Assembly: GCF_900142415.1 (NCBI RefSeq)
Contig: NZ_FRAU01000004.1
Location: forward strand, 62,001-126,000
DNA length: 64,000 nt
Direction of reading: 5' to 3'
Source of the DNA: Rhodothermus profundi
GTDB lineage: Bacteria > Bacteroidota > Rhodothermia > Rhodothermales > Rhodothermaceae
The notes under the pieces are model-generated. The model was not told the origin of the DNA. It saw only the letters and a list, made by a program, of their open reading frames with translations, and did not search any database. Positions 9,057 through 62,111 of the stretch are shown here, piece after piece. Position 1 is the first letter of the stretch. Every line of letters begins with the position of its first letter. Made by a program: the position numbers and the translations under genes.

Positions 9057-9285
9057 AAAATTACGCTGGTTGATTTGAAGACTGCGGTGTCTTTAATTTA
9101 TGCTGCGGTTTTGATGTTGTAGTACTTCCAAAGCACGCGAAGTAGTGTAGCGAAGAGCCCTTTCCGCCAGCCAACTTTTGGCGCAATCTGTTAGCAAAAA
9201 AAGGCGCAATCCTCGACCCGAGCTTAACTCGGCGCGGTTTCGGTCGATTCCCCCCGTAGGCCGACCACTGTCCGGATGTATTGCC

Positions 9286-9489
9286 ATGAAAGAGGTGCCT
9301 GATCGTCCGATGTCATTTACGTTTGATCCCGAAGCCGTTGCCGAGCTGCCGCCGGTACTTCAGCGCTACATCCTGGCGTTGTATCATCGGGTATGGGCGG
9401 CTTATCGTAAGGTGGGCTGTCCTTTTGGCGAAACAGACGCAGCGATGCTGCTCTGGTTTGAATTTCGCCTGCATACCACCATTAACTGA
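9286..9489 (+). CDS. Small hypothetical protein (67 residues)
   Basis: A short frame starting at ATG 9286 encodes an acidic-then-aromatic small protein with the core FDPEAVAELPPVLQRYILAL followed by a helix-like segment ending in WFEFRLHTTIN. I do not recognise it. An alternative ATG at 9310 has an AGAGGTG ribosome site about 12 bases upstream and would give a 59-residue protein. The composition looks coding (balanced residues, regular helix pattern) rather than like a shadow frame. It precedes the DUF4342 gene on the same strand by 100 bases. The function is unknown and expression needs proof. Confidence 0.45.
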   Translation: MKEVPDRPMSFTFDPEAVAELPPVLQRYILALYHRVWAAYRKVGCPFGETDAAMLLWFEFRLHTTIN

Positions 9490-9589
9490 GACGTTGCAAA
9501 TCTTTTCCGGTTGTCCTGCAACCGAAGGTGCGTCCTTGCCGTAAGGATCGACGAACGCCGTTTCACTTCGTCGATCTCAGGGAGGAGCC

Positions 9590-9910
9590 ATGACGGATCC
9601 CAGGCACCACTTTGAAACCTTCAAAGTTCGGGGCGGCCAACTGCTGGATCGCATTCGGGAAATTATTGAAGAAGGAAACGCTCGGCGGGTAATTCTGAAG
9701 AAAGATAATCGCGTCTTACTCGAGTTTCCGCTTTCTGTTGGCGTAGGCGGCGCTGCAGCGGCGGTGCTGTTTGCCCCAACGCTGGCTGCTGTTGGCGCGA
9801 TTGCCGCCCTGGTGAGTGACGTAGACGTGATCATTGAGCGTCGCCCCGCGCCTCCGCAAGAGCTTCCGCCAGCCGAGCAACAGCCCCCGAACGGCGACGC
9901 AAACGCCTGA
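9590..9910 (+). CDS. DUF4342-domain protein
   Basis: The 106-residue protein begins after a strong ribosome site (GGGAGGAG). It has an N-terminal helical and strand region with ILKKDNRVLLEFPLSVG, a short hydrophobic glycine/alanine-rich stretch (about residues 50-75) that could insert in or lie on a membrane, and a proline-rich charged tail. This is the DUF4342 pattern (small proteins with the sequence ..RVxLxxPLxxG..), sometimes paired with UBA-like helices in Firmicutes. The biochemical function of the family is not known. The gene is closed by a strong hairpin at 9917-9954. Confidence 0.75.
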   Translation: MTDPRHHFETFKVRGGQLLDRIREIIEEGNARRVILKKDNRVLLEFPLSVGVGGAAAAVLFAPTLAAVGAIAALVSDVDVIIERRPAPPQELPPAEQQPPNGDANA

Positions 9911-9916
9911 ACCACA

Positions 9917-9954
9917 AAGGGGCGTCCCGGTAGTCATGCACCGGGACGCCCCTT
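9917..9954. terminator. Strong hairpin between convergent genes
   Basis: A perfect 15-bp inverted repeat (AAGGGGCGTCCCGGT with its reverse complement) with an 8-base loop lies 7 bases after the DUF4342 stop and 23 bases before the end of the convergent porin gene. The stem carries A-tract and T-tract ends on both strands (AAGG at one end, CCTT at the other), although true long U-tracts are missing. It most likely ends transcription from both sides. Confidence 0.75.
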
Positions 9955-9976
9955 GCACTTCCCCCCGCAGCACAAC

Positions 9977-10666
9977 TCAGAGACTGAACCCAAACACCAG
10001 GTACGAGCGCTCCACGCGCGGATTAGGATTCAGAATGTAGTGCACAAACACAGGCAGGCTGAACGCTTCGGTAATCTGGATGGTGCGCGAAGCAGCAAGT
10101 CCTAGATTAACCAGCGTTACATCGCCCGTGTTGTAGAGCGCACTCTGCCCCGCTACTACCCCCACAGTCAACCGCATTTCCACGTCGCCTACCGTAAACG
10201 GATACTGTCCCTCCAGGTAAATCGTATTGTCTGGGTCGTTGTAGGCAAAAATGCTGGCGTGCAGGGTAAAAGGAGCTGTCTCGGGACCTCTGATCTGGAT
10301 AAATGGCTCCAGATAATGCGCGCCCTGACCATCATCGTCAAAGTCGAAAAACTTCGCCCCATTCGGCGCTGGGAAGTAATAATCGGTTACCCCCACCGAC
10401 AGGGCCCCCAGATCAAGACTGAGATACAGGTCGTGCTCGTTGGCCCCGGCTCCAGAGGCTGTAAGCGCATAGGAGGCCCACGTGCCTACGGTCAACGCGC
10501 CCACGGAGAGGCTCAAACCGGGCTGCACGCTCATGGATTCGCCAAAGTCCATTCCACGCCAGACATACCGGCTTACCACATCGGCTCCCAGATGAATCTC
10601 CTGAGCCTGGACCACAGAGACGAGCAAAAGGGTTTTAAACAGCAAGCAGAAATGTACCCTCCGCAT
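9977..10666 (-). CDS. TorF-like outer-membrane porin
   Basis: I choose the ATG at 10666 because it gives a clean signal peptide (MRRVHFCLLFKTLLLVSVVQAQ); the frame extends 23 residues upstream with no signal-like sequence. The mature protein shows the TorF family start, VSRYVWRGMDFGESMSVQPG, followed by alternating amphipathic strands and an aromatic C-terminal residue pattern (SYLVFGFSL) as expected for outer-membrane barrels. It should form a beta-barrel of about 10 to 12 strands. The substrate is unknown. It is divergent from threonine ammonia-lyase across an AT-rich promoter region and converges on the DUF4342 gene at a shared hairpin. Confidence 0.85.
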   Translation of the reverse strand: MRRVHFCLLFKTLLLVSVVQAQEIHLGADVVSRYVWRGMDFGESMSVQPGLSLSVGALTVGTWASYALTASGAGANEHDLYLSLDLGALSVGVTDYYFPAPNGAKFFDFDDDGQGAHYLEPFIQIRGPETAPFTLHASIFAYNDPDNTIYLEGQYPFTVGDVEMRLTVGVVAGQSALYNTGDVTLVNLGLAASRTIQITEAFSLPVFVHYILNPNPRVERSYLVFGFSL

Positions 10667-10743
10667 AACACGACAAGTTTTATTAGTTGTTACACCTACC
10701 TTATACAACTTATTAAGGTAAACAAATACTATCAATATACTTT

Positions 10744-10771
10744 TTTATGAAAAAGCGCTTTCTATTATAAA
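10744..10771 (+). promoter_or_regulatory. Candidate promoter for a leaderless threonine ammonia-lyase mRNA
   Basis: A TATAAA box at 10766-10771 is preceded by TTTATG with a 16-base spacer. The coding ATG is at 10777, so transcription from this box would begin at or very near the ATG. No Shine-Dalgarno precedes the ATG, which fits a leaderless transcript. The region is clearly AT-rich compared with its neighbours. The -35 match is weak. Confidence 0.4.
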
Positions 10772-10776
10772 TATTT

Positions 10777-11775
10777 ATGATTATCTCTCTTCCCACCTAC
10801 ACTGACGTCCAAGCCGCCGCCCGACGGCTGGAGGGCATCGCGCATCGCACGCCGGTGATGCGCAGCCGCACGCTGAACCGCCTGACGCAGGCCAGCTTGT
10901 TCTTCAAGTGTGAGAATTTTCAGCGAACAGGCTCCTTTAAATTCCGCGGAGCCTATAATGCAATGGCAACTCTGTCTGAAGCCGAACGCCGCCGGGGCGT
11001 GCTCACCTACTCCTCGGGCAATCATGCCCAGGCGTTAGCCCTGGCCGGACGCCTGCTGGGCGTACCGGTTACGGTGGTCATGCCGCAGAACGCGCCGGAG
11101 GTCAAACGCAGAGCTACCGCCAGCTATGGCGCCGAGCTGGTGTTTTACGATCCCGAGCAAACCACGCGCGAGGCGCTCGGCCAGCAACTGGCGGCTGAGC
11201 GAGGCCTGGCGATCATTCCTCCCTACGATCATCCGCACATCATAGCAGGCCAGGGCACAGCCGCTCGTGAACTACTGGAGGAGGTAGGACCGCTGGACGT
11301 GCTGCTGGTGCCCTGCGGGGGCGGTGGGTTGCTTTCCGGTTCAGCCCTCAGCGCTCGCGCACTGGCGCCCCGGTGCCGTGTCGTGGGGGTTGAGCCGGCG
11401 CAGGCCGACGATGCTACGCGTTCGTTCCGAACCGGCCGGCTGCACCGCGTGCACAATCCAGACACCATCGCCGACGGTGCCCGCACGCCTTCGCTGGGCC
11501 ACCTCACGTTTCCGCTCGTGCGGCAGTATGTGGACGACATGGTAACCGTTTCGGAAAAGGCCATTCTGCAGGCCATGTACGTACTCTGGGAGCGGCTCAA
11601 GCTGGTGATCGAGCCAACCGGCGCCCTGCCCCTGGCCGCCCTCCTCGAAAATCGCGTCGCTGTTGCCGGACAGCGGGTCGGGCTCATTCTCAGCGGAGGA
11701 AACGTAGATTTACGTCGCGCGGCCGAGCTCTTTGCGCGTCTCGACCAACTCCCAGCGTTACCACCAAGCGTATGA
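10777..11775 (+). CDS. Threonine ammonia-lyase (biodegradative-type, no ACT domain) or serine racemase-like
   Basis: A fold-type II PLP enzyme of 332 residues. The PLP lysine is K55 in TGSFKFRGA, the SSGNHAQA substrate loop follows at about 80, and the phosphate-binding loop CGGGGLLSG is near 180. It converts L-threonine (or L-serine) to 2-oxobutyrate (or pyruvate) and ammonia in the cytosol. The length and the missing C-terminal regulatory ACT domain mark the short catabolic or serine racemase/threo-hydroxyaspartate group; the exact substrate cannot be settled from motifs alone. The ATG has no ribosome site and may head a leaderless mRNA. The next gene starts in its stop codon (ATGA). Confidence 0.9.
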   Translation: MIISLPTYTDVQAAARRLEGIAHRTPVMRSRTLNRLTQASLFFKCENFQRTGSFKFRGAYNAMATLSEAERRRGVLTYSSGNHAQALALAGRLLGVPVTVVMPQNAPEVKRRATASYGAELVFYDPEQTTREALGQQLAAERGLAIIPPYDHPHIIAGQGTAARELLEEVGPLDVLLVPCGGGGLLSGSALSARALAPRCRVVGVEPAQADDATRSFRTGRLHRVHNPDTIADGARTPSLGHLTFPLVRQYVDDMVTVSEKAILQAMYVLWERLKLVIEPTGALPLAALLENRVAVAGQRVGLILSGGNVDLRRAAELFARLDQLPALPPSV

Positions 11776-51119: not shown

Positions 51120-51718
51120 TCGCCTACGTCTCCGGAAAACTTGCGGCTAAAAAGCTGACCGAAGTGATTGTGGACGTGCACGGCCTGGGCTACCGGCTGC
51201 TGATCCCCACGTCCACTTATGAAGTGTTGCCCGAGGTCGGTGCGCCCGTCCATCTATTTACCCATTACTATGTGCGGGAAGACGCAGTGCTGCTGTTCGG
51301 ATTTGCAACGGAGGCCGAGCGCGCGCTGTTTGAGCTGCTCATCGGGGTAGCCGGTGTAGGGCCTCGTCTGGCGCTGGCTGCCCTCTCTACCCTCTCTCCG
51401 GGTCAGCTCCGGGACGCTGTAACGACCGGAAATGCACAGGCGCTGAAGCGCATACCTGGAGTAGGCCAGCGCCTGGCCGAACGATTAATTGTAGAGCTGC
51501 GGGATCGTCTGGCACTGCTGGATCTGGCCGAACTTGCGCCGGCAGGTGTGGACGACGTGCGCGCGCAGGCGCGAGCCGATGCTCTGGCAGCGCTGGAAGC
51601 GCTGGGCCTGCCCCGTGCGGCGGCCGAACGCAGTCTGCGCAAAGTGCTTCGGCAACATCCAGGACTTCAGTCGGCAGAAGAGCTCATCCGGCTGGCCCTC
51701 CGTGAGCATGGTAGCTAA
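51116..51718 (+). CDS. ruvA: Holliday junction branch-migration protein RuvA
   Basis: The 200-residue protein has the N-terminal OB-fold (MIAYVSGKLAAKKLTEVIVD), the helix-hairpin-helix domain with LIGVAGVGPRLALAAL and RIPGVGQRLAERLIVEL, and the C-terminal three-helix domain that contacts RuvB. It loads RuvB on Holliday junctions. RuvB and RuvC are not in the window. It overlaps the nadE stop by four bases and the end of the opposite-strand histidine kinase gene by four bases. Confidence 0.97.
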   Translation: MIAYVSGKLAAKKLTEVIVDVHGLGYRLLIPTSTYEVLPEVGAPVHLFTHYYVREDAVLLFGFATEAERALFELLIGVAGVGPRLALAALSTLSPGQLRDAVTTGNAQALKRIPGVGQRLAERLIVELRDRLALLDLAELAPAGVDDVRAQARADALAALEALGLPRAAAERSLRKVLRQHPGLQSAEELIRLALREHGS

Positions 51719-53178
51719 GCCTGCGCGCAGGACGTTCCGTTTGTCGCCACGCGGCTGTCTGCTGACTGTTCGCGGCGGCGAGGAATAATCACCGTGAAGA
51801 TGCTGCCAATCCCTGGTTGACTTTCTACATAAATCTGTCCATCCAGTAGCCGTACAATGCGCTGCACGATGGTCAGGCCAAGCCCACTGCCCTCATAATC
51901 GCGGGAAAGCCCACTGGATGCTTGCTTAAATTCCTCAAAGATGACCGACTGTAGCTCTTCCGGAATACCAATGCCCGTGTCAGCGACCTGCAACTGGATG
52001 GTTTCGGCGTCTCCCTCCAGGAGCACGGTCACGCCACCTTTTTCGGTAAATTTAATTGCATTATGCACCAGATTTTTGACCAATCGCTCCCAGAGCCCTT
52101 CATCGATGCAGGCGGTCAGGGCAGCTTCGCTGCTTTGCAGCGTGAGCTCCAGTTTTTTGCTGCGGGCTAGCGGCTCTAATTCGTTGATCACGGCCCGCGT
52201 GGCAGCTACCACATCCAGCTCTCGATGATGCACGCACACCGTACCGGCCTCCAGGCAAGACATGTAGAGCAGGGAATCCAGCGTATCGAGCAGCCGTTGC
52301 CCACTCTGTTTGATAACCTGTGCCATTTCGCGTTGCATCGGATCTTGCAGCTCTTCTTCCAGAATCTGCGCGTAGCCCAGAATACCGGCCAGCGGCGTGC
52401 GGATTTCATGGTTCATGTTGGCCAGGAACGTGCTTTTCAGACGTGCCATTTCTTCAGCGGCTTCTTTGGCAGCCACCAGCACGGCCTGGTGTTCCTGGAC
52501 GCGGGTCAGCATTTCATTGAACGTGGCAGCCAGCTCGCGCAGTTCAACGGGACCTTCGACCGGCACCCGAATCGAGTAGTCATGGGTTTCGGCGACTGAG
52601 CGCACTACCTGACGCAAACGTTCCAGCGGGCGCACAAGGCCCCGCTGCAGCAACGCTACCAGTATCATGCTGATGCCCAGGGCCAGCAAAATGACATTAC
52701 CGCCTACGGACGCATAGTGTATCATGCGCTCTCGCCAGCCCAGCAGACTTGCTCGCAGATAAACATAGCCCTGCGTTTGCCCCTCCCACCGCACGGTTTC
52801 TACGTGATGCAGAAAGGTGCGTCCCTTCTCGACAGCCGGCAGACGCTCCGGCAATTCGGTGGCTTCCACGCCATTGAGGTACCAGGCAAACGGCCTTCCA
52901 TCCGGGGTATACAGCGCTGCGATCTGCACCGATGGAATGCTGCGCACGCCTTCCAGCACCTCCGTGGCTGCCGGAGCATCCTGAAAAACCAGGGGGGCCA
53001 CGCTATGCTCAGCCAGTAATCGGCCCAGCACTTCCAGCTCGCGCGCCTTCTCGCGCCGAAACTGCGCCAGATCGTACAGGGCAAACAGTACGCCCGTCAG
53101 TAGCAGAATGACCGTGCTGGTCCACAGCACGATCAGAATCATCTGCGTTTTAAGCGAGCAGCGATCTACGAGCCTCAT
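51715..53178 (-). CDS. Sensor histidine kinase with CHASE8-like periplasmic domain
   Basis: The 487-residue kinase has an N-terminal membrane helix (about 13-36), a periplasmic domain (about 37-155, with ARELEVLGRLLAEHSVAPLVFQD, a CHASE8-type pattern), a second helix (about 158-178), HAMP (about 180-235), HisKA (about 243-310) with the phospho-acceptor H257 in NMNHEIRTPLAG, and HATPase (N-box NLVHNAIKFTEKGG, DTGIGIPEE, GSGLGLTIVQ). It is translated in overlap with YfiR, which comes just before it (ATGA). No response regulator is adjacent. CHASE8 is typical of YfiN diguanylate cyclases, where it is inhibited by YfiR; here the output is a kinase. Confidence 0.92.
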   Translation of the reverse strand: MRLVDRCSLKTQMILIVLWTSTVILLLTGVLFALYDLAQFRREKARELEVLGRLLAEHSVAPLVFQDAPAATEVLEGVRSIPSVQIAALYTPDGRPFAWYLNGVEATELPERLPAVEKGRTFLHHVETVRWEGQTQGYVYLRASLLGWRERMIHYASVGGNVILLALGISMILVALLQRGLVRPLERLRQVVRSVAETHDYSIRVPVEGPVELRELAATFNEMLTRVQEHQAVLVAAKEAAEEMARLKSTFLANMNHEIRTPLAGILGYAQILEEELQDPMQREMAQVIKQSGQRLLDTLDSLLYMSCLEAGTVCVHHRELDVVAATRAVINELEPLARSKKLELTLQSSEAALTACIDEGLWERLVKNLVHNAIKFTEKGGVTVLLEGDAETIQLQVADTGIGIPEELQSVIFEEFKQASSGLSRDYEGSGLGLTIVQRIVRLLDGQIYVESQPGIGSIFTVIIPRRREQSADSRVATNGTSCAQA

Positions 53179-53744
53179 CTTTTTTCCTCGTAGATTCGGG
53201 CCAGCCGGAGCAGACGCGCACTCAACTGAAGCCCTGCCCGGCGAGCCGCCGTGACATTAATTTCAAAATGCACGCGATTCCCCTCTTCCACCAGGCGTAC
53301 AATCCCCCCTTGTCTCAGAAAATCCTCGCCTTCGCCAATCGTCAGCACGGGCTGATGTCGCAACTGCGCCAGCGCTGCCTGCAGCATCTGGGTCGGCATC
53401 GCCCCTATGAACACGATATGGCAACCTTGGGCCGACGCACCAGCAGGTAAATGGCGAATCTCCAGCGGTCGGTTGTGCACAGTCTTCCCTTTGAGCTGTT
53501 CCAGCGCCTCTCCAAAAGGATTCTTTCCCAGGAGGCACAGTCGAAGGGGCGTTTCGGCACCTTCAAAAGCCTTATCAGGCCAGAGGCTGAACTGCGCAAA
53601 ATGGTATAGGAACGTCGCCTTAGTGCGGTAAATGCGCGTCCGCTCTACAGGTATCGTCTGAATCAACCCGCTTTCTGCACCCGTTGCATTTCCCGGCAGA
53701 AGCAGCAGAAAACACCAGAGCAATCTGTATTTCATGGTCTTCAT
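53175..53744 (-). CDS. Periplasmic YfiR-family protein (DUF4154)
   Basis: The 189-residue protein has a signal peptide (LLWCFLLLLPGNATGA) and the YfiR pattern: KATFLYHFAQFSLWP, LRLCLLGKNPFGEAL, GCHIVFIGAMP, VLTIGEGEDFLRQGGIVRL. C70 and C108 have nearly the spacing of the disulphide pair of Pseudomonas YfiR. In that system YfiR holds a CHASE8 membrane partner in the off state until envelope redox or peptidoglycan stress releases it. Here the partner encoded four bases on is a histidine kinase. The gene may be preceded on the same transcript by the TonB receptor block, 66 bases to 560 bases upstream. Confidence 0.9.
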   Translation of the reverse strand: MKTMKYRLLWCFLLLLPGNATGAESGLIQTIPVERTRIYRTKATFLYHFAQFSLWPDKAFEGAETPLRLCLLGKNPFGEALEQLKGKTVHNRPLEIRHLPAGASAQGCHIVFIGAMPTQMLQAALAQLRHQPVLTIGEGEDFLRQGGIVRLVEEGNRVHFEINVTAARRAGLQLSARLLRLARIYEEKR

Positions 53745-53809
53745 TGCCGTCCCTGCGTTCGTTATCCATGCGTTTCTGCCGCAGCGATTTCATGCACTTC
53801 CCCTGGCAG

Positions 53810-54181
53810 TCAATTAGCCGTCCCGCCCAGGTCCCTTTCTGAGCACAGGAATTGCACGTAGGCGTCCAGGTCAACTGCTATCTGGAAATCGTGCCCCGTC
53901 TCCCGAGAGGTTGGTGCTTCTGTCTCCCGGTTTACCTCCCACACGCAGGCGTCCCGGGGCAGCGTCCAGATCATCTCGAAACTTCCCCGGTGCGTTTTCC
54001 CGGCCTCCCCGGGATCCGGTCGGTCTTTCCTCCGATCCCCTGCATCAGGATCGGGCGCTCCCTCCCTGAACAATCGCCAGTGCCGTTGCACGGGATTGTC
54101 CGACCGGTCCCAGACTTCGACAGGTCCCGTTGCCGGTGCAGGCAGCGCGCTTGGTAGGCGCCTGCCATGCCTCATACGCAT
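53810..54181 (-). CDS. Hypothetical protein of unclear reality
   Basis: A 123-residue frame beginning at ATG 54181 lies between the TonB receptor and yfiR. It is Arg/Asp-rich and has one plausible folded region (GSFEMIWTLPRDACVWEVNRE) but no recognisable domain, signal peptide or membrane helix. The N-terminus is basic and proline-rich. The opposite strand carries an overlapping frame of similar size. It could be a small real gene, the broken remainder of a larger one, or chance. The flanking sequence has no clear ribosome site. Confidence 0.25.
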   Translation of the reverse strand: MRMRHGRRLPSALPAPATGPVEVWDRSDNPVQRHWRLFREGAPDPDAGDRRKDRPDPGEAGKTHRGSFEMIWTLPRDACVWEVNRETEAPTSRETGHDFQIAVDLDAYVQFLCSERDLGGTAN

Positions 54182-54302
54182 GTTCAGGTGAGGCTAGACG
54201 TTCCCAGAATGCGCTTTCTTTCTGGGTATCGACAGGAAGTGCGCCTGGTTAAATTTCTTACAAGTTCTGTATAATCTTTTGTATAGCGTAGAGGCTAGAT
54301 GT

Positions 54303-56939
54303 TCAGAAGTGCAGCACTAACTCGAAAGAGGCCTGCCGGCCCAGATCATACACATCAACGGGTGCAAAAGCAAAACGGCGCGGCAGCCGCTCGCCTACCA
54401 GTACCAGCACGGGCTCGCGGTACCAGGGGTTAGCCCGGTTAAACAGATTGAACACCCCCAGCCGCATTTCTGCTGTTGCGAAAGCCAGGCGATAGCGACT
54501 CGTCAGCGTCAGGTCCATGCGGTGGTAGGGTCCTAACCGTTCAGGCTGCGTCTGCTCCGTATAACGTTCCGTGTTGGGTGGTCCAGAAGCTGAAAACCAG
54601 GCGAGCGTGAGCGCTGCGGCCGACCAGAGGGGCACGTCCAGATAAGCCCGGAATTGATGCCGACGATCCCAGGGAGCTGGATACCACGCGCCGCCATTCA
54701 GGGCATCATGGGCCAGCTCAACGCGGGCCAGTGCATAGGCCAGCGTGGCCCGAAATGGGCCAAGCGGCTGGTCCAGCAACATTTCCAGCCCATAGGCTCG
54801 GCTTCGCGCGCCGGTAAGCCAGGGCGTGGTTGTTTCCGGATCGCGGGCAATCAGAAAGAAAGGGGCTACCACTTCATGTTGCCACACGTTCGCAAAACGC
54901 CGGACGTAGGCGTCAAGCTGGATCCGCGTATGTCCTGGCCGCAATTGTACCCCTACGCTCACGTTATCAACGACGGTCGGAGGCTGGTCGCGCCCTGTGA
55001 GCAACCACACCCCTGTGCTGTTCATATTCTCGAAGGCCAGGTGGTGCCGGAACTGATAGTTTCGGCTGAAGCCCACCCCTGCCGACCAGCGTCCGTCAGG
55101 ATGCACCGTAAGCTGCAGTCGCGGCGAAAGTCGGAAATAGGGTCCCGTTGAAAATGCATGGAGTCGCAGCCCTGCCAGTACGTTCAGCAGCGGGTCAGGC
55201 CGTCCTTCATACTGCAAGAAGGCGTCGGTCTGCACGGCCTGTTGCTTTTCCTGAAACGGACGCGCTCGGACGGCCGAATGCTCTTCGTACGTAAGGGTTA
55301 GCTGCTGCAGCGCATAGCCTAGCGTCCAGTAACCGGTGCCCTGAACGATTTGTAACGTTTGCTCCCAGCGCCATTCACGCAACGCATTCGCGTAGGCAAA
55401 AGGGGCCAATCGTCGAAACAGTTTTTGCAGCCCGCCGCCGGCAAAAGCATACAGAAAATCATCTTTGGCGTAGCGACTTGCATAGGCAGTGGTGGCCAGC
55501 AACGTCCGAAGATGAAAGCCCGCCGCCATCTGATAGGTCAGTTGAATGCTTGCTGTACGGTTGGTCCAGCGCTGCCAGGTGGTCACCGGTTGCCATTCAA
55601 AGCCGATAATCCTACCACGGGCGTTCCAGCGCGGCATCAGGCGCTGGGCCTGTTGACGTGCGTCGTCGCTGCCCAGATAGCCGCTTACGGTTAGGCGGAC
55701 ACGTCTGCTTTCCAGGCGCAGCTTGCCATGCACGTCATAAAACGTTGCTGTGGAAGGGCCCAGTTCTAACAGACGCGCCTCCAGGTCGGCCACATTGGGC
55801 GGCAGCGGTCCGGTTGGGCGGGCCACATCCAGGCCGAAGGCGACCAGCCGATCATTACCCGGCCAGGCAAGCACGTCCAGCAATGACCGGCGGCCTGCCA
55901 GCAACCAGCTTCCCGAGCGCCCCAGAGGGCCTTCCAGTAAGAGACGACCCGCCACGTTACTCAGACCGGCAACGCCCCCCAGCCGCTGATAAGCCCCGCT
56001 GCGGGTCACGAAGGCAAGGGTGCCGCCCGGTGGGGCAGCATAGGTAGCCGGTGCTACATCATAGAAAAAGCCCACCGCCTGCAATGCATCCGGGTTAAAG
56101 GCATCGAACAACCCAAACAAATGAGAGGGATGGTAGACGGGCACGCCATCGAGCAATACCTGAAATCCGTCCGTCTGGCTTCCTCGCACGGTCAACCCTT
56201 CCAGTCCAACAGCCAATCCAACGGCTGGCAGAGCCTGAAGCGCCCGCAGCACGCCCCGTTCTCCAAACGGCGCAAAGCGTTCAGGCTGCACCAGGCGCTG
56301 CCAGGTTGTATCGATTCCATCCAGCCACGCAGCGCTTCCGACAATCAGGACGGTGGGCAGTTTTTTGTCCTGGTGTTGCAGGAAAATCGTCAGGGACTCC
56401 TGTTTGTCGCGGACCGCTAGCCGCACGGTTTGTGGCCGGTACCCCACGTAGGAAGCAGTCAGAGCGAGCGTATCCTGCGCAGCCGCCCGTTGCAGCGTGA
56501 GAGAAAAATGCCCGTCTGCATCGGCCATGGTGCCTAAAAGCTGGTCGCCTGCCCACCAGGAAACCGTCGCGTACGGCAGCGGCATCCCTGTTGTTCTGTC
56601 ACGCACCTGGCCTTCTATTGAGACGCTTCGCGAAGGGGCTTCCCGTAGAATAAGTTGCCGTCGCACGGTGTCGGCTTCCAGCACCAGCCCCTGACGGCTC
56701 AGTTCGCGGGTAAGTGCCTTGAGCAGCTCGGAGGTAGAAGTTGCCAGCGTAACGGTGCGGCCGCTAACCAGCGCATCGCGATAGAGGACCTGATAGCCTG
56801 TGCGCCGGGCAACATCGTCCAGCACCTGGCGAAGCGGCGTGTCGTGATAGACCACCGACTGGGCCTGAACCGTTGCCGTCAGGCCCAGCAGGCCAAGTCC
56901 CACCCCCATCAGCCAACGCACGATCCTATCGCACCGCAT
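54303..56939 (-). CDS. TonB-dependent receptor with N-terminal STN signalling domain
   Basis: The ATG at 56939 follows a GAGG site and lies in the 3' end of fecR (14-base overlap). The protein of about 878 residues has a signal peptide, an STN (secretin/TonB N-terminal) domain at about 25-105, a carboxypeptidase-regulatory-like domain at about 108-190, the plug (about 215-330) and a long beta-barrel to the end (ASFELVLHF). The STN domain lets the occupied receptor signal to FecR and then to the ECF sigma factor, as in FecA/FecR/FecI. The ligand is unknown. No TonB box could be named. Confidence 0.92.
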   Translation of the reverse strand: MRCDRIVRWLMGVGLGLLGLTATVQAQSVVYHDTPLRQVLDDVARRTGYQVLYRDALVSGRTVTLATSTSELLKALTRELSRQGLVLEADTVRRQLILREAPSRSVSIEGQVRDRTTGMPLPYATVSWWAGDQLLGTMADADGHFSLTLQRAAAQDTLALTASYVGYRPQTVRLAVRDKQESLTIFLQHQDKKLPTVLIVGSAAWLDGIDTTWQRLVQPERFAPFGERGVLRALQALPAVGLAVGLEGLTVRGSQTDGFQVLLDGVPVYHPSHLFGLFDAFNPDALQAVGFFYDVAPATYAAPPGGTLAFVTRSGAYQRLGGVAGLSNVAGRLLLEGPLGRSGSWLLAGRRSLLDVLAWPGNDRLVAFGLDVARPTGPLPPNVADLEARLLELGPSTATFYDVHGKLRLESRRVRLTVSGYLGSDDARQQAQRLMPRWNARGRIIGFEWQPVTTWQRWTNRTASIQLTYQMAAGFHLRTLLATTAYASRYAKDDFLYAFAGGGLQKLFRRLAPFAYANALREWRWEQTLQIVQGTGYWTLGYALQQLTLTYEEHSAVRARPFQEKQQAVQTDAFLQYEGRPDPLLNVLAGLRLHAFSTGPYFRLSPRLQLTVHPDGRWSAGVGFSRNYQFRHHLAFENMNSTGVWLLTGRDQPPTVVDNVSVGVQLRPGHTRIQLDAYVRRFANVWQHEVVAPFFLIARDPETTTPWLTGARSRAYGLEMLLDQPLGPFRATLAYALARVELAHDALNGGAWYPAPWDRRHQFRAYLDVPLWSAAALTLAWFSASGPPNTERYTEQTQPERLGPYHRMDLTLTSRYRLAFATAEMRLGVFNLFNRANPWYREPVLVLVGERLPRRFAFAPVDVYDLGRQASFELVLHF

Positions 56940-57909
56940 GGGCCTCAAATCGGTAGTGCCCGGGAGCGATTCTGATAAAACGACCGCCTAAGGCCCGGCT
57001 CAGATCTTCCAGCGTCTGCTCCAGGCTATCCAGCAGAAGCGTACCACTGAGCGTCTGCGAGGCATAGGGTTCGGGCAGCGTAATCTGCACGCCAAAGTGA
57101 TGCGCCAGTTCGGCAGCCACCTGGCTGGCTGGCTCCTGCGTAAAAGCCAGCCGTCCCTGCATCCAATCCAGGTAGTCTTCGGCCGAGGCAGGCTCCGGGG
57201 ACGTCAGATGTCCGTCAGCGGTGAGGCGGCTACGCTGACCCGCTGTGAGCACCTGGCGCTGCCCTGCCGGTCCTTCTAACTGCACTCGTCCTTCCTCCAG
57301 AAATACTTCTACACCGCTCCAGGTGCGCACGTCGAATCGCGTGCCCAGCACGGTAACGCGCACCGGTCCAGCCTCTACTTGAAACTGTCGCGTGGGCCGA
57401 TGCACTACCTCGAAGAAAGCTTCTCCTTCTAGCCGATACCGTAAGACTTTGTCGGCGTGTGTCAATAGATAAAGGCGCGAATGGGGACGAAGAGTAATGT
57501 GCGATCCGTCCGGCGCCGTGTATACCTGACGGGTTGTAGTGGCCGAGGCCACCAGCACGGGAGCTGCTTCTCGAAGTAGATGCAGCCACCATCCCAGGCC
57601 AGCAGCCAGTAACACGATAGCCACAGCCAGCGCGCGACGCCAGCGCGGACGGCGCTTCAGAGCGGGGCGCTGCGGCATACGATCGGCTGCCTGCCGATGC
57701 ATCCGCATAGCAATCTGCTGCCAGATGCGCTCGCGCCGCGCTGGTTGATCGACTGGAGCCACTTCATCGGCCAGCGCCAGCAACGCCCGCCCCAGCGGAT
57801 CATTCCTCAGCTCCGGATCCGTATGTAGCGGTTGTCCCGCCTCCCGAAGCTGCCCGATCCGCCGGGCGAGCGTTTCGTCACGGTCGCTATGGGATGGTTG
57901 CTGCATCAT
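56926..57909 (-). CDS. FecR-family anti-sigma factor
   Basis: The 327-residue protein has a cytosolic helical part (about 1-90), one membrane helix (about 92-110, RRALAVAIVLLAAGLGWWLH), the periplasmic FecR domain with TRQVYTAPDGSHITLRPHS and EGEAFFEVVHRPTRQF, and a C-terminal STN-like domain (about 255-325). The two halves link receptor status to release of the sigma factor. It overlaps the TonB receptor by 14 bases, so the pair is co-translated. The order on this strand is sigma, lipoprotein, FecR, receptor. A GC-rich hairpin lies between the lipoprotein and this gene. Confidence 0.93.
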   Translation of the reverse strand: MMQQPSHSDRDETLARRIGQLREAGQPLHTDPELRNDPLGRALLALADEVAPVDQPARRERIWQQIAMRMHRQAADRMPQRPALKRRPRWRRALAVAIVLLAAGLGWWLHLLREAAPVLVASATTTRQVYTAPDGSHITLRPHSRLYLLTHADKVLRYRLEGEAFFEVVHRPTRQFQVEAGPVRVTVLGTRFDVRTWSGVEVFLEEGRVQLEGPAGQRQVLTAGQRSRLTADGHLTSPEPASAEDYLDWMQGRLAFTQEPASQVAAELAHHFGVQITLPEPYASQTLSGTLLLDSLEQTLEDLSRALGGRFIRIAPGHYRFEAHAVR

Positions 57910-57927
57910 ACCTCAAGAAACGTAAGG

Positions 57928-57952
57928 GCGGGGCGCCCGTGGGGCGCCCCGC
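57928..57952. promoter_or_regulatory. GC-rich hairpin between the lipoprotein and fecR genes
   Basis: An 11-bp stem (GCGGGGCGCCC against its reverse complement) with a 3-base loop fills most of the 55-base gap between the lipoprotein stop and the fecR start, on the transcribed strand. There is no U-run directly after it, so it is more likely an mRNA processing or attenuation element than a full terminator. It could make fecR less abundant than the genes before it. Confidence 0.45.
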
Positions 57953-57964
57953 TTACCCCGTGGC

Positions 57965-58891
57965 TTACGACTCTCGCTTAACCTCACCGGTGCTCAGGAA
58001 AATACGGTACGTCTGCGGCACGCCATAGAAGCGCACAAGCGCCGAACCATCCCCATTCATTTCAATGGTCCCTTCTACCTCATGCACCACCTCCTTGTCC
58101 CCTGTGCGCTTGACCATCCGTACTTCATAGGCCAGCGTACCGTAGGTCAGATGCTCCAGCGAATCGGTAGCTGAAGGCTTCAGAATGACAATCGGTCCAT
58201 CGGTAACCAACCGGGCCCGGAATTCCTGCTCCACCTCCTGCCCTTCTCGGTTCACAAAATGCCGGGCTCCCTCCATTTCCTGCTCTCCTTCAAAGGTAAT
58301 CGTATCGCTTTCTGCCTCCAGGCCTTCTACATGCCAGGTAGCCCGACGCTCGAACGAAGCGCTCCGTTCGTTGCCCGAAGGCGTCCGATGCGCCACAGAT
58401 CCTTTGCGATACCCTTCAAAATCAATGGAAGCAATCCGATTACGCTCTGCGCGGGGACGTGCAATAAACTGGCCATTTTTGTCCTTGAAAATGTACTTTA
58501 ACAGCGCCTCAATAGACTTGCGGAAATTGGGACGCGTAACCTCATGAACGAAATGAATGGTAAACGTCCCGGTTGTTGAGTCGTAATCTACTCGGAAGCC
58601 CCGGCGCATGCCCCGCCAGTAACGCGGGTTCTGCACCTCGTCGCCGTTTTTCGAGACGACGCTACCGGTCAGGTAATACATACCGCGCTGGTCAAATGTG
58701 GCCGTCGCATCGTAGAGATCGGTCATCATGCCGTCGCTCTGGTCGGCCAGTGACTGCGCCACCACTTCAGCTACTTCACGGGCGACCTCCTCGTTAAGCT
58801 CCTGTTCTTCCTGTGCATTTTGCAATGCATCACAGGCTGCCAGCGATGCCATCAGCAACAGCGCCAGTCCACTTTGATAAAGCCGCTTCAT
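57965..58891 (-). CDS. Lipoprotein of unknown function inside the sigma/FecR/receptor block
   Basis: The ATG at 58891 has an AGGAGGTG site and gives about 308 residues. It starts with a type II signal peptide (MKRLYQSGLALLLMASLAAC, lipobox LAAC with C20). The mature part begins with an acidic coiled segment (QNAQEEQELNEEVAREVAEVV), then a beta-rich domain with two GTxxYEV/GTIEMNGDGSALVRF segments that look like repeated lipocalin or substrate-binding strands. I do not recognise a family. It is placed between the ECF sigma gene and fecR, which is not the standard FecIRA arrangement. It is thus a candidate extra regulator, or an outer-membrane cargo of the system. Confidence 0.7.
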   Translation of the reverse strand: MKRLYQSGLALLLMASLAACDALQNAQEEQELNEEVAREVAEVVAQSLADQSDGMMTDLYDATATFDQRGMYYLTGSVVSKNGDEVQNPRYWRGMRRGFRVDYDSTTGTFTIHFVHEVTRPNFRKSIEALLKYIFKDKNGQFIARPRAERNRIASIDFEGYRKGSVAHRTPSGNERSASFERRATWHVEGLEAESDTITFEGEQEMEGARHFVNREGQEVEQEFRARLVTDGPIVILKPSATDSLEHLTYGTLAYEVRMVKRTGDKEVVHEVEGTIEMNGDGSALVRFYGVPQTYRIFLSTGEVKRES

Positions 58892-59010
58892 CGCACACCT
58901 CCTGTCGTTTGGTTGATTCGGATGGTACAACAGGCCAGCCGCTCGTTGGCTGGCTACTTCCTATACACGGCAAGCGGCTCCTTCCCCCATCCGAATCGCC
59001 CCAATTTCTG

Positions 59011-59601
59011 CTACCGAAAATCGGACAGCGCGGCCCGAAGCTGCCGGAGCGCCTGTGCCATCTGGTTCTCTACGGTTTTTGGACTGATCCCCAGCACTTC
59101 CGCCGCTTCGCGATAGGTCAGCTCCTGAAGAAAGCAGAGCTCGAAAACAGCCCGGCGACGCTCCGGAAGTCGTGCAATAGCTTCCTGCAATCGCGCCTGC
59201 AAAAACCCGGCATCGGTCTGGCGATCTGCTCCAGGAGCAGGATCTGAAAGCTCCGGAAGCTCAGCCTGCTGGCTCAGCCGGCGCGTGTCGCGAAAGTGAT
59301 TCAGCGCGCGGTTATGCCCGATGCGAAACAGAAACGCCCGCAGAGAGCGGTTCGGGTCAATCTGCGCTCGCCGCTCCCAGACAGCCAAAAAGGCCTGCTG
59401 CACCAGATCCTCCGCGACGGCCGACGGAACGCCCATTCGTTCCAGGTAGTGCAGCAAAAAGGCGTAGTATCGTTCAAAAAAAAGCCGAAAAGCCTGCTGA
59501 TCCCCTGCACGGATGCGGCGGGCCAGTTCGGCGTCGTCGAGCACCCCGACGGTTCCCTGCCGGGCCAGCAAAAGTAACAGACCGAGCGTTGCGTCTGTCA
59601 T
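59011..59601 (-). CDS. ECF-type RNA polymerase sigma factor (FecI-like)
   Basis: The 196-residue protein has sigma region 2 (DAELARRIRAGDQQAFRLFFERYY, AEDLVQQAFLAVWERR) and region 4 (RRRAVFELCFLQELTYREAAEVLGISPKTVENQMAQALRQLR), with no region 3. That is the ECF group 10 pattern common in Bacteroidota with FecR partners. The start is uncertain: ATG 59601 gives MTDATLG, and the core starts near residue 20. It is the first gene on this strand of the sigma-lipoprotein-FecR-receptor set. It recruits RNA polymerase once FecR releases it. Its promoter is not evident in the AT-rich stretch upstream. Confidence 0.94.
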   Translation of the reverse strand: MTDATLGLLLLLARQGTVGVLDDAELARRIRAGDQQAFRLFFERYYAFLLHYLERMGVPSAVAEDLVQQAFLAVWERRAQIDPNRSLRAFLFRIGHNRALNHFRDTRRLSQQAELPELSDPAPGADRQTDAGFLQARLQEAIARLPERRRAVFELCFLQELTYREAAEVLGISPKTVENQMAQALRQLRAALSDFR

Positions 59602-60287
59602 GGTCTTCGCCTGAACTCCCCCGCCGGTATCGGCAAAAACAGCGCCAACTGAACCGGACAGGCCTGATAGATTCCTGCCTCAACAAGGGATGAGCGGTCC
59701 CCTTCCTGCGAGAAGCCCCTGCCAGAGCCCTCTCCACATACGTAAGTTCGGATCGCTCCAACCCTGTCCGCCGGAAGGTGCGGAAGCTCCTGTTGTAAAT
59801 GTATACCCACGCAATAACATGCGACCATAACTTACTACCCTAAAGCTCCCCCTTCCGAAAACGCGCTTCTAATAAGTTATTATGCTCGATAGAATTTACG
59901 TTAGAACGTGTAAAGACTTGTCTTCTAATGTGTGGGCTTTATCAGCTTCTTGCACAATTATTTTGAAGTGGCTAACCACTCCCTCAACAATCTCTTTGAG
60001 TCTTTGAGAGAGGGTTCCCCAACACTTTCTTTCTGTATCGGGGGACCAGAACCTGGGAGGACGGGAAAACCTAACCTTACATATTCTGCCAACACCCTTA
60101 CGGGCGACCCCTCCCTTACACAGAAGGGGACGTAGAGTTAAATGCATCGCCCCGGCGACGCGCACAGCGCTGCGCCATAGATCAGGCACCTGTCTCGCAA
60201 CGCGACAAGCCGGAACCTTTCCCCGCGCTGCGCGAAAGACAGCCGCCTTGCAACAAGCAGGCATCTACCGCCAGACGCAGAAGCACT
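59602..60287. other. Intergenic region between the ECF sigma gene and typA
   Basis: This 686-base gap holds the transposase fragment at 59896-60075 and nothing else I can name. From 59602 to 59895 and from 60076 to 60287 I see no gene, riboswitch or terminator. The region is more AT-rich than its surroundings around 59830-59960. The sigma gene's promoter and the typA promoter must lie here. Confidence 0.6.
59896..60075 (-). pseudogene. Remnant of an IS200/IS605-type transposase (tnpA) N-terminal region
   Basis: The translated stretch contains FWSPDTERKCWGTLSQRLKE followed by IVEGVVSHFKIIVQEAD and ends in EDKSLHVLT. This is recognisably the start of a Y1 transposase (SPKYRxKVLxGxxxxRLKEI...HVH) with the usual histidine motif degraded to LHVLT. 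The rest of the gene, including the catalytic tyrosine, is absent, and the ends of an insertion sequence are not visible. It is a decayed fragment only. Confidence 0.5.
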
Positions 60288-62111
60288 ATGAGCTATCCTC
60301 TCCGCAATATTGCCATTGTAGCCCACGTCGACCACGGCAAGACGACCCTGGTCGATGCGATGCTCTGGCAGAGCGGCATCTTTCGGGCCAATCAGGACGT
60401 GCAGGAGCGGGTGCTCGACTCGCTCGACCTGGAGCGGGAAAAGGGCATCACGATCATGGCGAAAAACACGGCCATATGGTACCGAGATGTCAAAATCAAC
60501 ATCGTAGACACGCCGGGCCACGCCGACTTTGGCGGCGAAGTGGAGCGTACGCTGCGCATGGTGGACGGCATCATGCTCCTGGTTGACGCGGCCGAAGGTC
60601 CGCTACCCCAGACGCGCTTTGTGCTTTCAAAGGCCCTGGCCCTGAAGCTGCCCGCTATTGTTGTGATCAATAAAATCGACCGCAAGGATGCCCGTCCCCG
60701 TCAGGTACTCGACGAAATCTATGACCTGTTTATCGATCTGGATGCTACCGAAGACCAGCTCGACTTCCCGGTGCTCTATACCGTGGCCAAGGAAGGCCGC
60801 TGCACGCACGACCCCGATGCCCCCCTGACCGACCTGCGCCCCCTCTTCGAAGCTATTCTGGCCCACATTCCGCCGCCGCAGGGTGACCCGAACGCTCCCC
60901 TCCAGATGCTGGTCACACACGTGCAACCAGATCCCTATCGCGGCCCGCTCGCTATTGGCCGCATCGTGCAGGGCACGCTTCGCAACCGTCAGCAGGTGCT
61001 GTGCTGCCACCGAGACGGCCGCCGCACAGCCGCCTCAGTAACAGCTCTGTTTGAATTTGAAGGATTGCAGCGCGTCGAAACCGAACAGGCCGGTCCGGGC
61101 GCCATTGTGGCAGTAGCCGGCATGCAGGGCATTGGCCTGGGGGAGTCCATTACCGACGCCGACCATCCCCAGCCGCTACCGCCTCTCCATATCGACGAGC
61201 CGACGCTCTCCATGGAGTTCCGCGTCAACGACGGCCCCTTTGCCGGACGCGAAGGGCAGTACGTAACCTCACGTCACCTGCGCGAGCGCCTCTTCAAAGA
61301 AGCGGCCAATAACCTCGCCCTGCGCGTTGAAGCGACCGACTCTCCCGATGTGTTTCTTGTCTATGGTCGAGGCGAACTGCAGCTTGCCATTCTCATTGAG
61401 CAGTTGCGCCGGGAAGGCTACGAATTCACGGTGGGCCAGCCGCGTGTACTTACGCGTCAGATCGACGGCCAGCTTCACGAACCCTTTGAGCGCGTGCTCA
61501 TCGACGTGCCTGAGGCATATATGGGGGTCGTGGTCCAGAAGCTGGGCATGCGTCGCGGGGTGCTCACAAAAATGATCAACCATGGCACAGGACGCGTCCG
61601 CCTTGAGTTTGAGATGCCCGCTCGTGGACTGATCGGCTACCGCAGCGAATTTCTGACCGACACGAAGGGGACCGGTTTGCTGCATCATCTCTTTGACGGC
61701 TACCGACCATGGGCCGGTCCCATCACGCATCGGGCTACAGGCGCGCTGGTAGCCGACCGTCCCGGACGCGTAACAGCCTACGCCATGCTGCATCTGCAAG
61801 AACGCGGCGAGCTGTTTGTAGAGCCTGGTGACGAAGTGTACGCGGGCATGATCGTCGGGGAACACTGCCGGGAAGGCGATCTGGAAGTGAACATCACCCG
61901 GGAAAAGAGGCTCACCAACATGCGGGCTGCCACGGCCGAAGGATTTGAAAAGCTCGTTCCCCCTCGCAAACTCTCGCTCGAAGAGGCTATCGAATTTATT
62001 CGGGAGGACGAATTGATCGAAGTTACGCCCCGAGCGATTCGGCTGCGTAAACGTTATCTCGATCCTCACGAACGCAAGCGTCAGGCGCTCCGCCAACGAG
62101 AAACGTCCTGA
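60288..62111 (+). CDS. typA: Ribosome-associated GTPase TypA/BipA
   Basis: The 607-residue protein has the translational GTPase P-loop [15 protein letters not shown], the switch II segment [14 protein letters not shown], the NKID motif, and the C-terminal BipA domain ([34 protein letters not shown]). It helps 50S assembly and cold or stress adaptation. Length is typical of the family. The gene follows a 686-base gap containing the transposase remnant and ends 55 bases before the end of the convergent L-2-hydroxyglutarate oxidase gene. The ribosome site is weak. Confidence 0.97.

Follow-up and report, generated by a model that had tools for sequence, protein, structure and literature searches.

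The E. coli FecI/FecR/FecA system brings together an extracytoplasmic function (ECF) sigma factor, a FecR-family regulator and a TonB-dependent receptor, three components that it shares with the locus described here. In the parts of PMC9249621 that deal with its regulation, the receptor gene fecA is the first target, FecR is co-transcribed with FecI, fecIR is not autoregulated, and no lipoprotein belongs to the set. The window that we analyzed, a 64,000-nucleotide stretch of Rhodothermus profundi (contig NZ_FRAU01000004.1, positions 62,001 to 126,000), carries a lipoprotein gene between the sigma factor gene and fecR. A first-pass annotation of this DNA had proposed the order sigma factor, lipoprotein, FecR, receptor, with a LAAC lipobox in the lipoprotein, and both are real: the four genes all lie on the minus strand between 59601 and 54303.

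59011..59601, minus strand: ECF sigma factor gene, FecI-like (TIGR02985), 196 aa, with Arg104-Asp105 in region 2.4
57965..58891 (from the ATG), minus strand: class A lipoprotein gene, 308 aa, with the LAAC lipobox at Cys20
56926..57909, minus strand: gene for the FecR-family sigma regulator (PF04773, 48.6 bits; PF16344, 26.7 bits; both above cut-off)
54303..56939 (ATG at 56939), minus strand: TonB-dependent receptor gene, with a putative STN-like N-terminus, a CarbopepD_reg domain and a barrel (PF00593, 53.5 bits, above cut-off)

Comparing this locus with its relatives, we favor, with moderate confidence, a combined reading in which the sigma factor reads a motif before the lipoprotein gene, a hairpin behind that gene attenuates transcription, and the lipoprotein is the main product.

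Conservation of the gene order

We searched 244 genomes of the class (Rhodothermia) with a profile built from a 22-row lipoprotein alignment (A1) and obtained matches in 111 of them at E values up to 0.001; at the order level, 25 of 114 genomes matched at E values up to 0.1, about 20 of them strongly. Gene neighborhoods were read at 40 places in the class taken from profile matches, roughly half of them top-ranked and half deliberately low-ranked, at a further 23 + 25 loci of the order chosen by lipoprotein, receptor or sigma factor matches, and at 16 loci from the 22 genomes that matched outside the class. The counts below cover loci read in context rather than all genomes.

The lipoprotein gene is followed by fecR and then by the receptor gene in 7/7 genomes of the family (Rhodothermus). 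More broadly, FecR lies downstream on the same strand in 53 of the 76 lipoprotein rows read in context, with the receptor also present in 52. Because the lipoprotein gene stands 5' of FecR on the same strand in so many rows, the order is not due to chance and, judging from these loci, is a widespread variant rather than a local oddity. These 53 operon rows represent 52 genomes (46 rows with class A or B lipoproteins, 6 with an LTxxQ-type and 1 with another kind), and a sigma factor gene lies no more than 300 nt upstream in 38 of them. The 23 rows without FecR downstream consist of five contig ends, the first of two lipoprotein copies at locus L040 (where a serine hydrolase gene and the second copy come next), five lone class A genes (L045, L048, L152, L153 and L154) and 12 distant lone relatives. 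Across the loci compared, then, the lipoprotein is bound to the operon among near relatives and alone among remote ones. The first-pass annotation had named a lipoprotein found alone or with unrelated genes in most relatives as counting against its view, and this is what we observed for the remote ones (the 12 in the class and 16/16 outside it) and not in the seven Rhodothermus genomes.

A motif upstream of the lipoprotein gene

Side-by-side reading of the gaps between sigma factor and lipoprotein genes brought out two words, T[ATG]GGGG and GTGTA, spaced ~15 nt apart. In the window they form the following predicted element.

58964..58990, minus strand: predicted sigma promoter ATGGGGG-N15-GTGTA (-35-like TGGGGG, -10-like GTGTA), ending 72 nt before the lipoprotein ATG

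With the pattern fixed as T[ATG]GGGG-N15..17-GTGTA, 44 of the 51 operon rows with enough upstream sequence had the motif closely preceding the lipoprotein gene, while the same pattern, scanned from -330 to +30, was found before 0/42 sigma factor, 0/53 FecR and 0/52 receptor genes; first-order Markov shuffles contained it in 5/10200 cases. Because the earliest loci had served to define the pattern, a fair count uses the loci taken after motif discovery, where 18 of 24 operon rows carried it. The seven rows that lack the motif have GTGTT (L038), GGGTA (L141), CTGTA behind the same first word (L157, L170, L172 and L173) or a partial site (L171). L157 and L170-L173 belong to a sister system whose lipoprotein often bears DUF5666 repeats. 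At L143 and L040, two lipoprotein genes are each preceded by their own motif. Separately, a lone class A lipoprotein gene at L153 (6454-7437) has the strict motif, with sigma factor, FecR and receptor not seen nearby.

The motif also keeps its place when the sigma factor gene lies elsewhere. The sigma factor orthologue is ~128 kb from the lipoprotein gene in genomes G002 and G003 (89 and 87% identical), with the break point right after the sigma factor stop codon, and the motif is still found at the lipoprotein gene. At L139, L140, L143, L145 and L150 the sigma factor gene is 1.0-2.5 kb away, and none was seen upstream of the lipoprotein gene at L093, L098 and L141, where at least 1 kb was read. 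In these 10 loci with a remote or unseen sigma factor, the strict motif precedes the lipoprotein gene in 9, all but L141, so that by position the motif is independent of the sigma factor gene. Where the sigma factor was lost, the upstream region at L033 (9479-12799) and L034 (~9200-11000) holds a gene for a long repeat-bearing exported protein, with the L034 copy apparently broken.

Region 2.4 of a sigma factor reads the -10 element. An arginine at the region 2.4 position is present in 40/40 sigma factors of GTGTA loci and in 0/5 of those of the CTGTA group, and this arginine may read the first base of GTGTA/CTGTA.

Exchange of lipoproteins at one position

Where the position between sigma factor and FecR lacks a class A protein, it still holds a lipobox protein. 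A divergent class B occupies it at four loci (the first copy of L040, L089, L092 and L103), an all-helical class C with LTxxQ repeats at eight (L085, L086, L088, L093, L097, L098, L101 and L102), and a lipoprotein of another kind at L091. Profiles A1 and A2 align at the signal peptide only, and the mature parts do not align. In a receptor tree of 52 rows made with a quick method, class C rows are dispersed at separate points between those of class A, corresponding to at least four changes of kind. Thus, as these alignments and the tree indicate, unrelated lipoproteins fill one position while FecR and the receptor stay orthologous. Outside the class, at L215 (5581-6898), a 135-aa LTxxQ-type gene is directly followed by a lone class A relative; these are the same two kinds that replace each other within the operon.

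A hairpin between the lipoprotein gene and fecR

57928..57952, minus strand: hairpin of 11 G-C pairs with a loop of 3, between the lipoprotein stop and the fecR start; attenuator-like or mRNA-stabilizing

This hairpin ends 18 nt before fecR, and comparable structures recur across lineages although their sequences differ. Folding of the lipoprotein-FecR gap compared with shuffles gave a mean z of -1.96, with z at or below -2 in 22 of 46 loci, versus a mean z of -0.04 and 0/46 such loci for the FecR-receptor joint. When one interruption and G-T pairs were allowed, stems of at least 12 pairs were found in 29/53 gaps, compared with 3.5% of 1590 shuffles, 5/53 regions inside fecR and 4/47 regions after the receptor gene. 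A strict count of perfect Watson-Crick stems of at least 10 pairs gave 17/53 gaps, compared with 0.24% of 2120 shuffles, 0/53 inside fecR and 0/47 after the receptor gene. No hairpin was found in the short gaps of L170-L173. In E. coli, according to the part of PMC9249621 that treats it, a hairpin 3' of fecA reduces fecBCDE expression, and by analogy with it the hairpin described here would favor the lipoprotein over FecR and the receptor.

Other genes behind the motif

In eight genomes of the class, TTAGGGG-N15..17-GTGTA occurs at 29 sites, compared with 7 for a reversed control. Nine of the 29 sites belong to class A lipoprotein genes and one to the L143 lipoprotein gene whose product is without a Pfam match, and which we take to be DUF4382-like. 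The motif further precedes MauG/MbnH-like di-haem genes in G149, G152, G154 and G221, CotH genes in G149 and G152, a YHYH gene in G149, a beta-lactamase-fold serine hydrolase gene in G154 and a second TonB receptor gene in G152. Overall, 20/29 sites have a frame of at least 90 aa with a hydrophobic N-terminus no more than 140 nt away, versus 95/780 random places. MbnH occurs with FecIRA-like genes in methanobactin loci, as described in part of PMC3621798, and by this analogy the MbnH-like targets hint at metals, which we treat as a lead only. A TIGR04039 search of the four genomes gave these MbnH-like genes 188-253 bits, none reaching the cut-off of 362.85.

At L229, L237 and L251, in three genomes, the motif lies inside a 502-codon frame, ~210 nt before another ECF-type sigma factor gene; a real link is conceivable, but these sites look like coding coincidence. 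A looser form of the pattern, tried in 15 more genomes, returned mostly noise and was dropped. Within the genome of the window itself, 30 of the 37 sites of the GGGG-N15..18-GTGTA pattern were read in context and showed the strict form at three places (L188, L191/L192 and L198); the strict sites other than that of the lipoprotein gene lie inside frames that run for 285 and 354 codons without a stop.

The lipoprotein and the rest of the locus

As the first-pass annotation had stated, the window lipoprotein has no family: it showed no Pfam match near cut-off, no NCBIfam family and no convincing PDB sequence match, and SusD families were not among its Pfam matches at E values up to 1. Its gene is single-copy in the genome, and an alternative TTG start at 58930 is likewise open. 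In the predicted class A model (mean pLDDT 85.5), two helices (34-48 and 55-62) precede a long, antiparallel, charged and curved beta meander; the 'acidic coiled segment' proposed earlier is, in this model, confined to those two short N-terminal helices. No solved fold matched the class A model at E < 0.03 in Foldseek. Outer-membrane barrels gave the best of the VIA-align rows listed, with the EspP barrel at the top (Z 13.8, rmsd 4.8, 216 aligned), but we do not favor a transmembrane barrel because the strands, charged over much of their length, seem unsuited to one. The predicted class C model is all-helical and weak (69.7), and its fold search gave no match among the rows listed (best Z 7.2, within the stated noise range). 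When five class C proteins were compared with LTXXQ (PF07813), the L098 protein reached 25.5 bits against a cut-off of 24.3, three fell below the cut-off and one had no match. Two variants of class A were also seen: a 1189-aa lipoprotein at L157 (3495-7061), in which the class A domain is followed by many acidic DUF5666 repeats (six matched stretches), and a lipoprotein at L052 (6462-6700) whose signal peptide and lipobox are duplicated in tandem and in frame.

The sigma factor matches PF04542 (57.2 bits) and PF08281 (68.4 bits), both above cut-off, and TIGR02985 at 130 bits (cut-off 126.4). The receptor gene start overlaps the fecR 3' end by 14 nt. The receptor's plug domain scored 19.0 bits, under its cut-off of 23.9, and the earlier label 'STN' has weak backing: PF07660 gave no match in the window's own receptor N-terminus and, among five N-termini, matched one, that of the Rhodothermus orthologue at L032, at 21.0 bits (cut-off 28.4). 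PDB matches of the receptor are SusC homologues, confined to the carboxypeptidase-like domain; we set aside an iron or siderophore receptor as a candidate name, for which these matches gave no specific support.

Further features of the locus are as follows.

58915..58997, minus strand: 11-bp inverted repeat, GATTCGGATGG (58987-58997) and CCATCCGAATC (58915-58925), around the promoter and leader
53175..53744, minus strand: YfiR gene (PF13689, 165.8 bits)
51715..53178, minus strand: kinase gene, 3' of YfiR

The inverted repeat is perfect in several Rhodothermus loci and decayed in others; like a 5' hairpin, it is kept in only part of Rhodothermus, and neither was used as support. YfiR and the kinase follow the receptor gene on the same strand (53744-53175 and 53178-51715), as annotated before, after a gap of ~560 nt. 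Among loci examined with those queries, the pair was seen in Rhodothermus only, and we place it outside the conserved unit. At two of the seven Rhodothermus loci (L036 in G005 and L037 in G006), YfiR had no match between receptor and kinase, and the kinase is kept. Rfam gave no match over window positions 53000-60300, and a sigma-70 promoter search found none.

Possible roles of the lipoprotein

The gene order and its conservation, the position and independence of the motif, the hairpin and the exchange of lipoproteins are read from the sequences themselves, and they suggest that producing the lipoprotein is the purpose of the system. In the mechanism that we propose, the receptor would bind a ligand and its STN-like domain would signal to FecR, which would release the sigma factor. 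The sigma factor would then start transcription at T[ATG]GGGG-N15-GTGTA, located between the sigma factor and lipoprotein genes, its target unit consisting of lipoprotein, hairpin, FecR and receptor. Most transcripts would stop, or be cut back, at the hairpin 3' of the lipoprotein gene, so the lipoprotein would be the first and main product, and read-through would yield less FecR and receptor. This would make the lipoprotein an envelope effector produced on demand.

Several observations weigh against this proposal. Four lone class A lipoprotein genes (L045, L048, L152 and L154) lack the motif, and the window's own genome shows no enrichment of GGGG-N15..18-GTGTA (37 sites versus 63 for the reversed control). 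The link between sigma factor and motif is based on the motif's location and a single clade split: because the five CTGTA-group sigma factors form one clade, the arginine/CTGTA split counts as a single event, and L171, included in that group, has only a partial site. The hairpin count drops to 17/53 gaps under the strict stem rule, 12/53 gaps have no more than 8 pairs, a T-rich tail follows 19/34 stems of at least 10 pairs, and the window hairpin itself has a poor tail. As a universal rule the proposal is further opposed by the 12/12 distant class relatives outside the operon (L158-L169, 83-137 bits) and by the 16/16 relatives read outside the class (45-95 bits), which stand among unrelated genes.

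The first-pass annotation had offered two roles for the lipoprotein, a third signaling element or a surface cargo controlled by the system, and cargo fits better. The predicted promoter immediately precedes the lipoprotein gene and is absent in front of the sigma factor, FecR and receptor genes, the motif stays with the lipoprotein when the sigma factor is elsewhere, and unrelated lipoproteins take the position while FecR and receptor stay orthologous. As a signaling part, the lipoprotein would bind FecR or the signaling domain of the receptor and act in the periplasm or outer membrane as a negative-feedback modulator, much like CpxP and RseB in their systems. Consistent with such a role are the fixed place between sigma factor and FecR, the co-transcription that the arrangement implies, and the LTxxQ-type lipoprotein found at that place in six loci, CpxP and Spy being of the LTxxQ kind (one of five scanned proteins passed the LTXXQ cut-off). 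However, a specific FecR partner would not be expected to be freely swapped for an unrelated protein in systems whose FecR and receptor remain orthologous, lone relatives exist without FecR nearby, and the motif also serves other exported proteins. We regard a signaling role as improbable.

Less favored still, and in our judgment unlikely, is a lipoprotein that catches substrate at the surface for this receptor, as SusD, BtuG and HmuY do for theirs. TonB receptors in this phylum are commonly served by surface lipoproteins, the receptor is in the same unit in 52/53 operon rows, and SusC homologues from the PDB match its carboxypeptidase-like domain. Against this, the lipoprotein has no SusD-like or other Pfam match and no Foldseek match below E 0.03, it is exchanged for an all-helical protein, the lone L153 gene has the motif with receptor and FecR not nearby, and the hairpin would make the amounts of the two partners unequal. 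Finally, a passenger that landed once between sigma factor and FecR and has since been inherited without serving the system would accord with a single inherited arrangement and with the distant relatives being lone genes, but it is very unlikely given that the position keeps a lipobox protein even when its kind differs and that the motif stays with the lipoprotein gene when the sigma factor moves and where two lipoprotein copies are present (L040 and L143).

Returning to the on-demand effector, we can extend it tentatively to a class-wide signaling regulon not recognized before, a possibility that we find rather doubtful. Such a regulon would have a FecI-like sigma factor, a dedicated promoter (T[AT]GGGG-N15-GTGTA) and one fixed product, a swappable envelope lipoprotein, with beta class A, helical LTxxQ and DUF5666-extended effectors and, in some genera, exported MauG/MbnH-like, CotH, YHYH and serine-hydrolase proteins as well; its receptor would sense the state of the envelope or of metals instead of importing nutrients. 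Iron or sugar uptake is the usual annotation for FecIRA-type systems. If our proposal is true, dozens of genomes carry such a system with an uncharacterized lipoprotein as its output, and an annotation as siderophore uptake would therefore mislead. The motif would offer a direct handle for predicting transcription starts and targets in organisms that lack regulatory data, the natural separations of sigma factor and target would provide a clean test of action in trans, and unrelated lipoproteins behind one promoter would be a rare case of conservation that extends to a regulatory position but not to its product.

Comparison with known systems

A search of the full-text literature, with subscription papers and preprints outside its scope, found nothing on a lipoprotein between sigma factor and FecR in this group. 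With SusC/SusD pairs the locus shares a CarbopepD_reg receptor and a lipoprotein in one unit, but the lipoprotein is not SusD-like and is placed before FecR rather than after the receptor. The class C lipoproteins resemble the LTXXQ family (the Spy and CpxP kind) in being all-helical with LTxxQ repeats; they differ in being longer and lipidated, with one of five above the curated cut-off, and the window lipoprotein belongs to the beta kind instead. MbnI/MbnR/MbnT with MbnH/MbnP, as presented in the relevant part of PMC3621798, likewise place a FecIRA-like set near a MauG-like di-haem enzyme, and here an MbnH-like gene has the motif in four genomes. In contrast with the methanobactin loci of that account, the lipoprotein here is unrelated and the MbnH-like matches lie below the family cut-off; methanobactin genes, for which no search was made, were not seen. 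The E. coli Fec system, within what PMC9249621 covers of it, also has its sigma promoter apart from the sigma factor gene and a hairpin 3' of the first target gene, whereas in the locus described here the lipoprotein comes first, FecR belongs to the target unit, and the FecR and receptor genes overlap.

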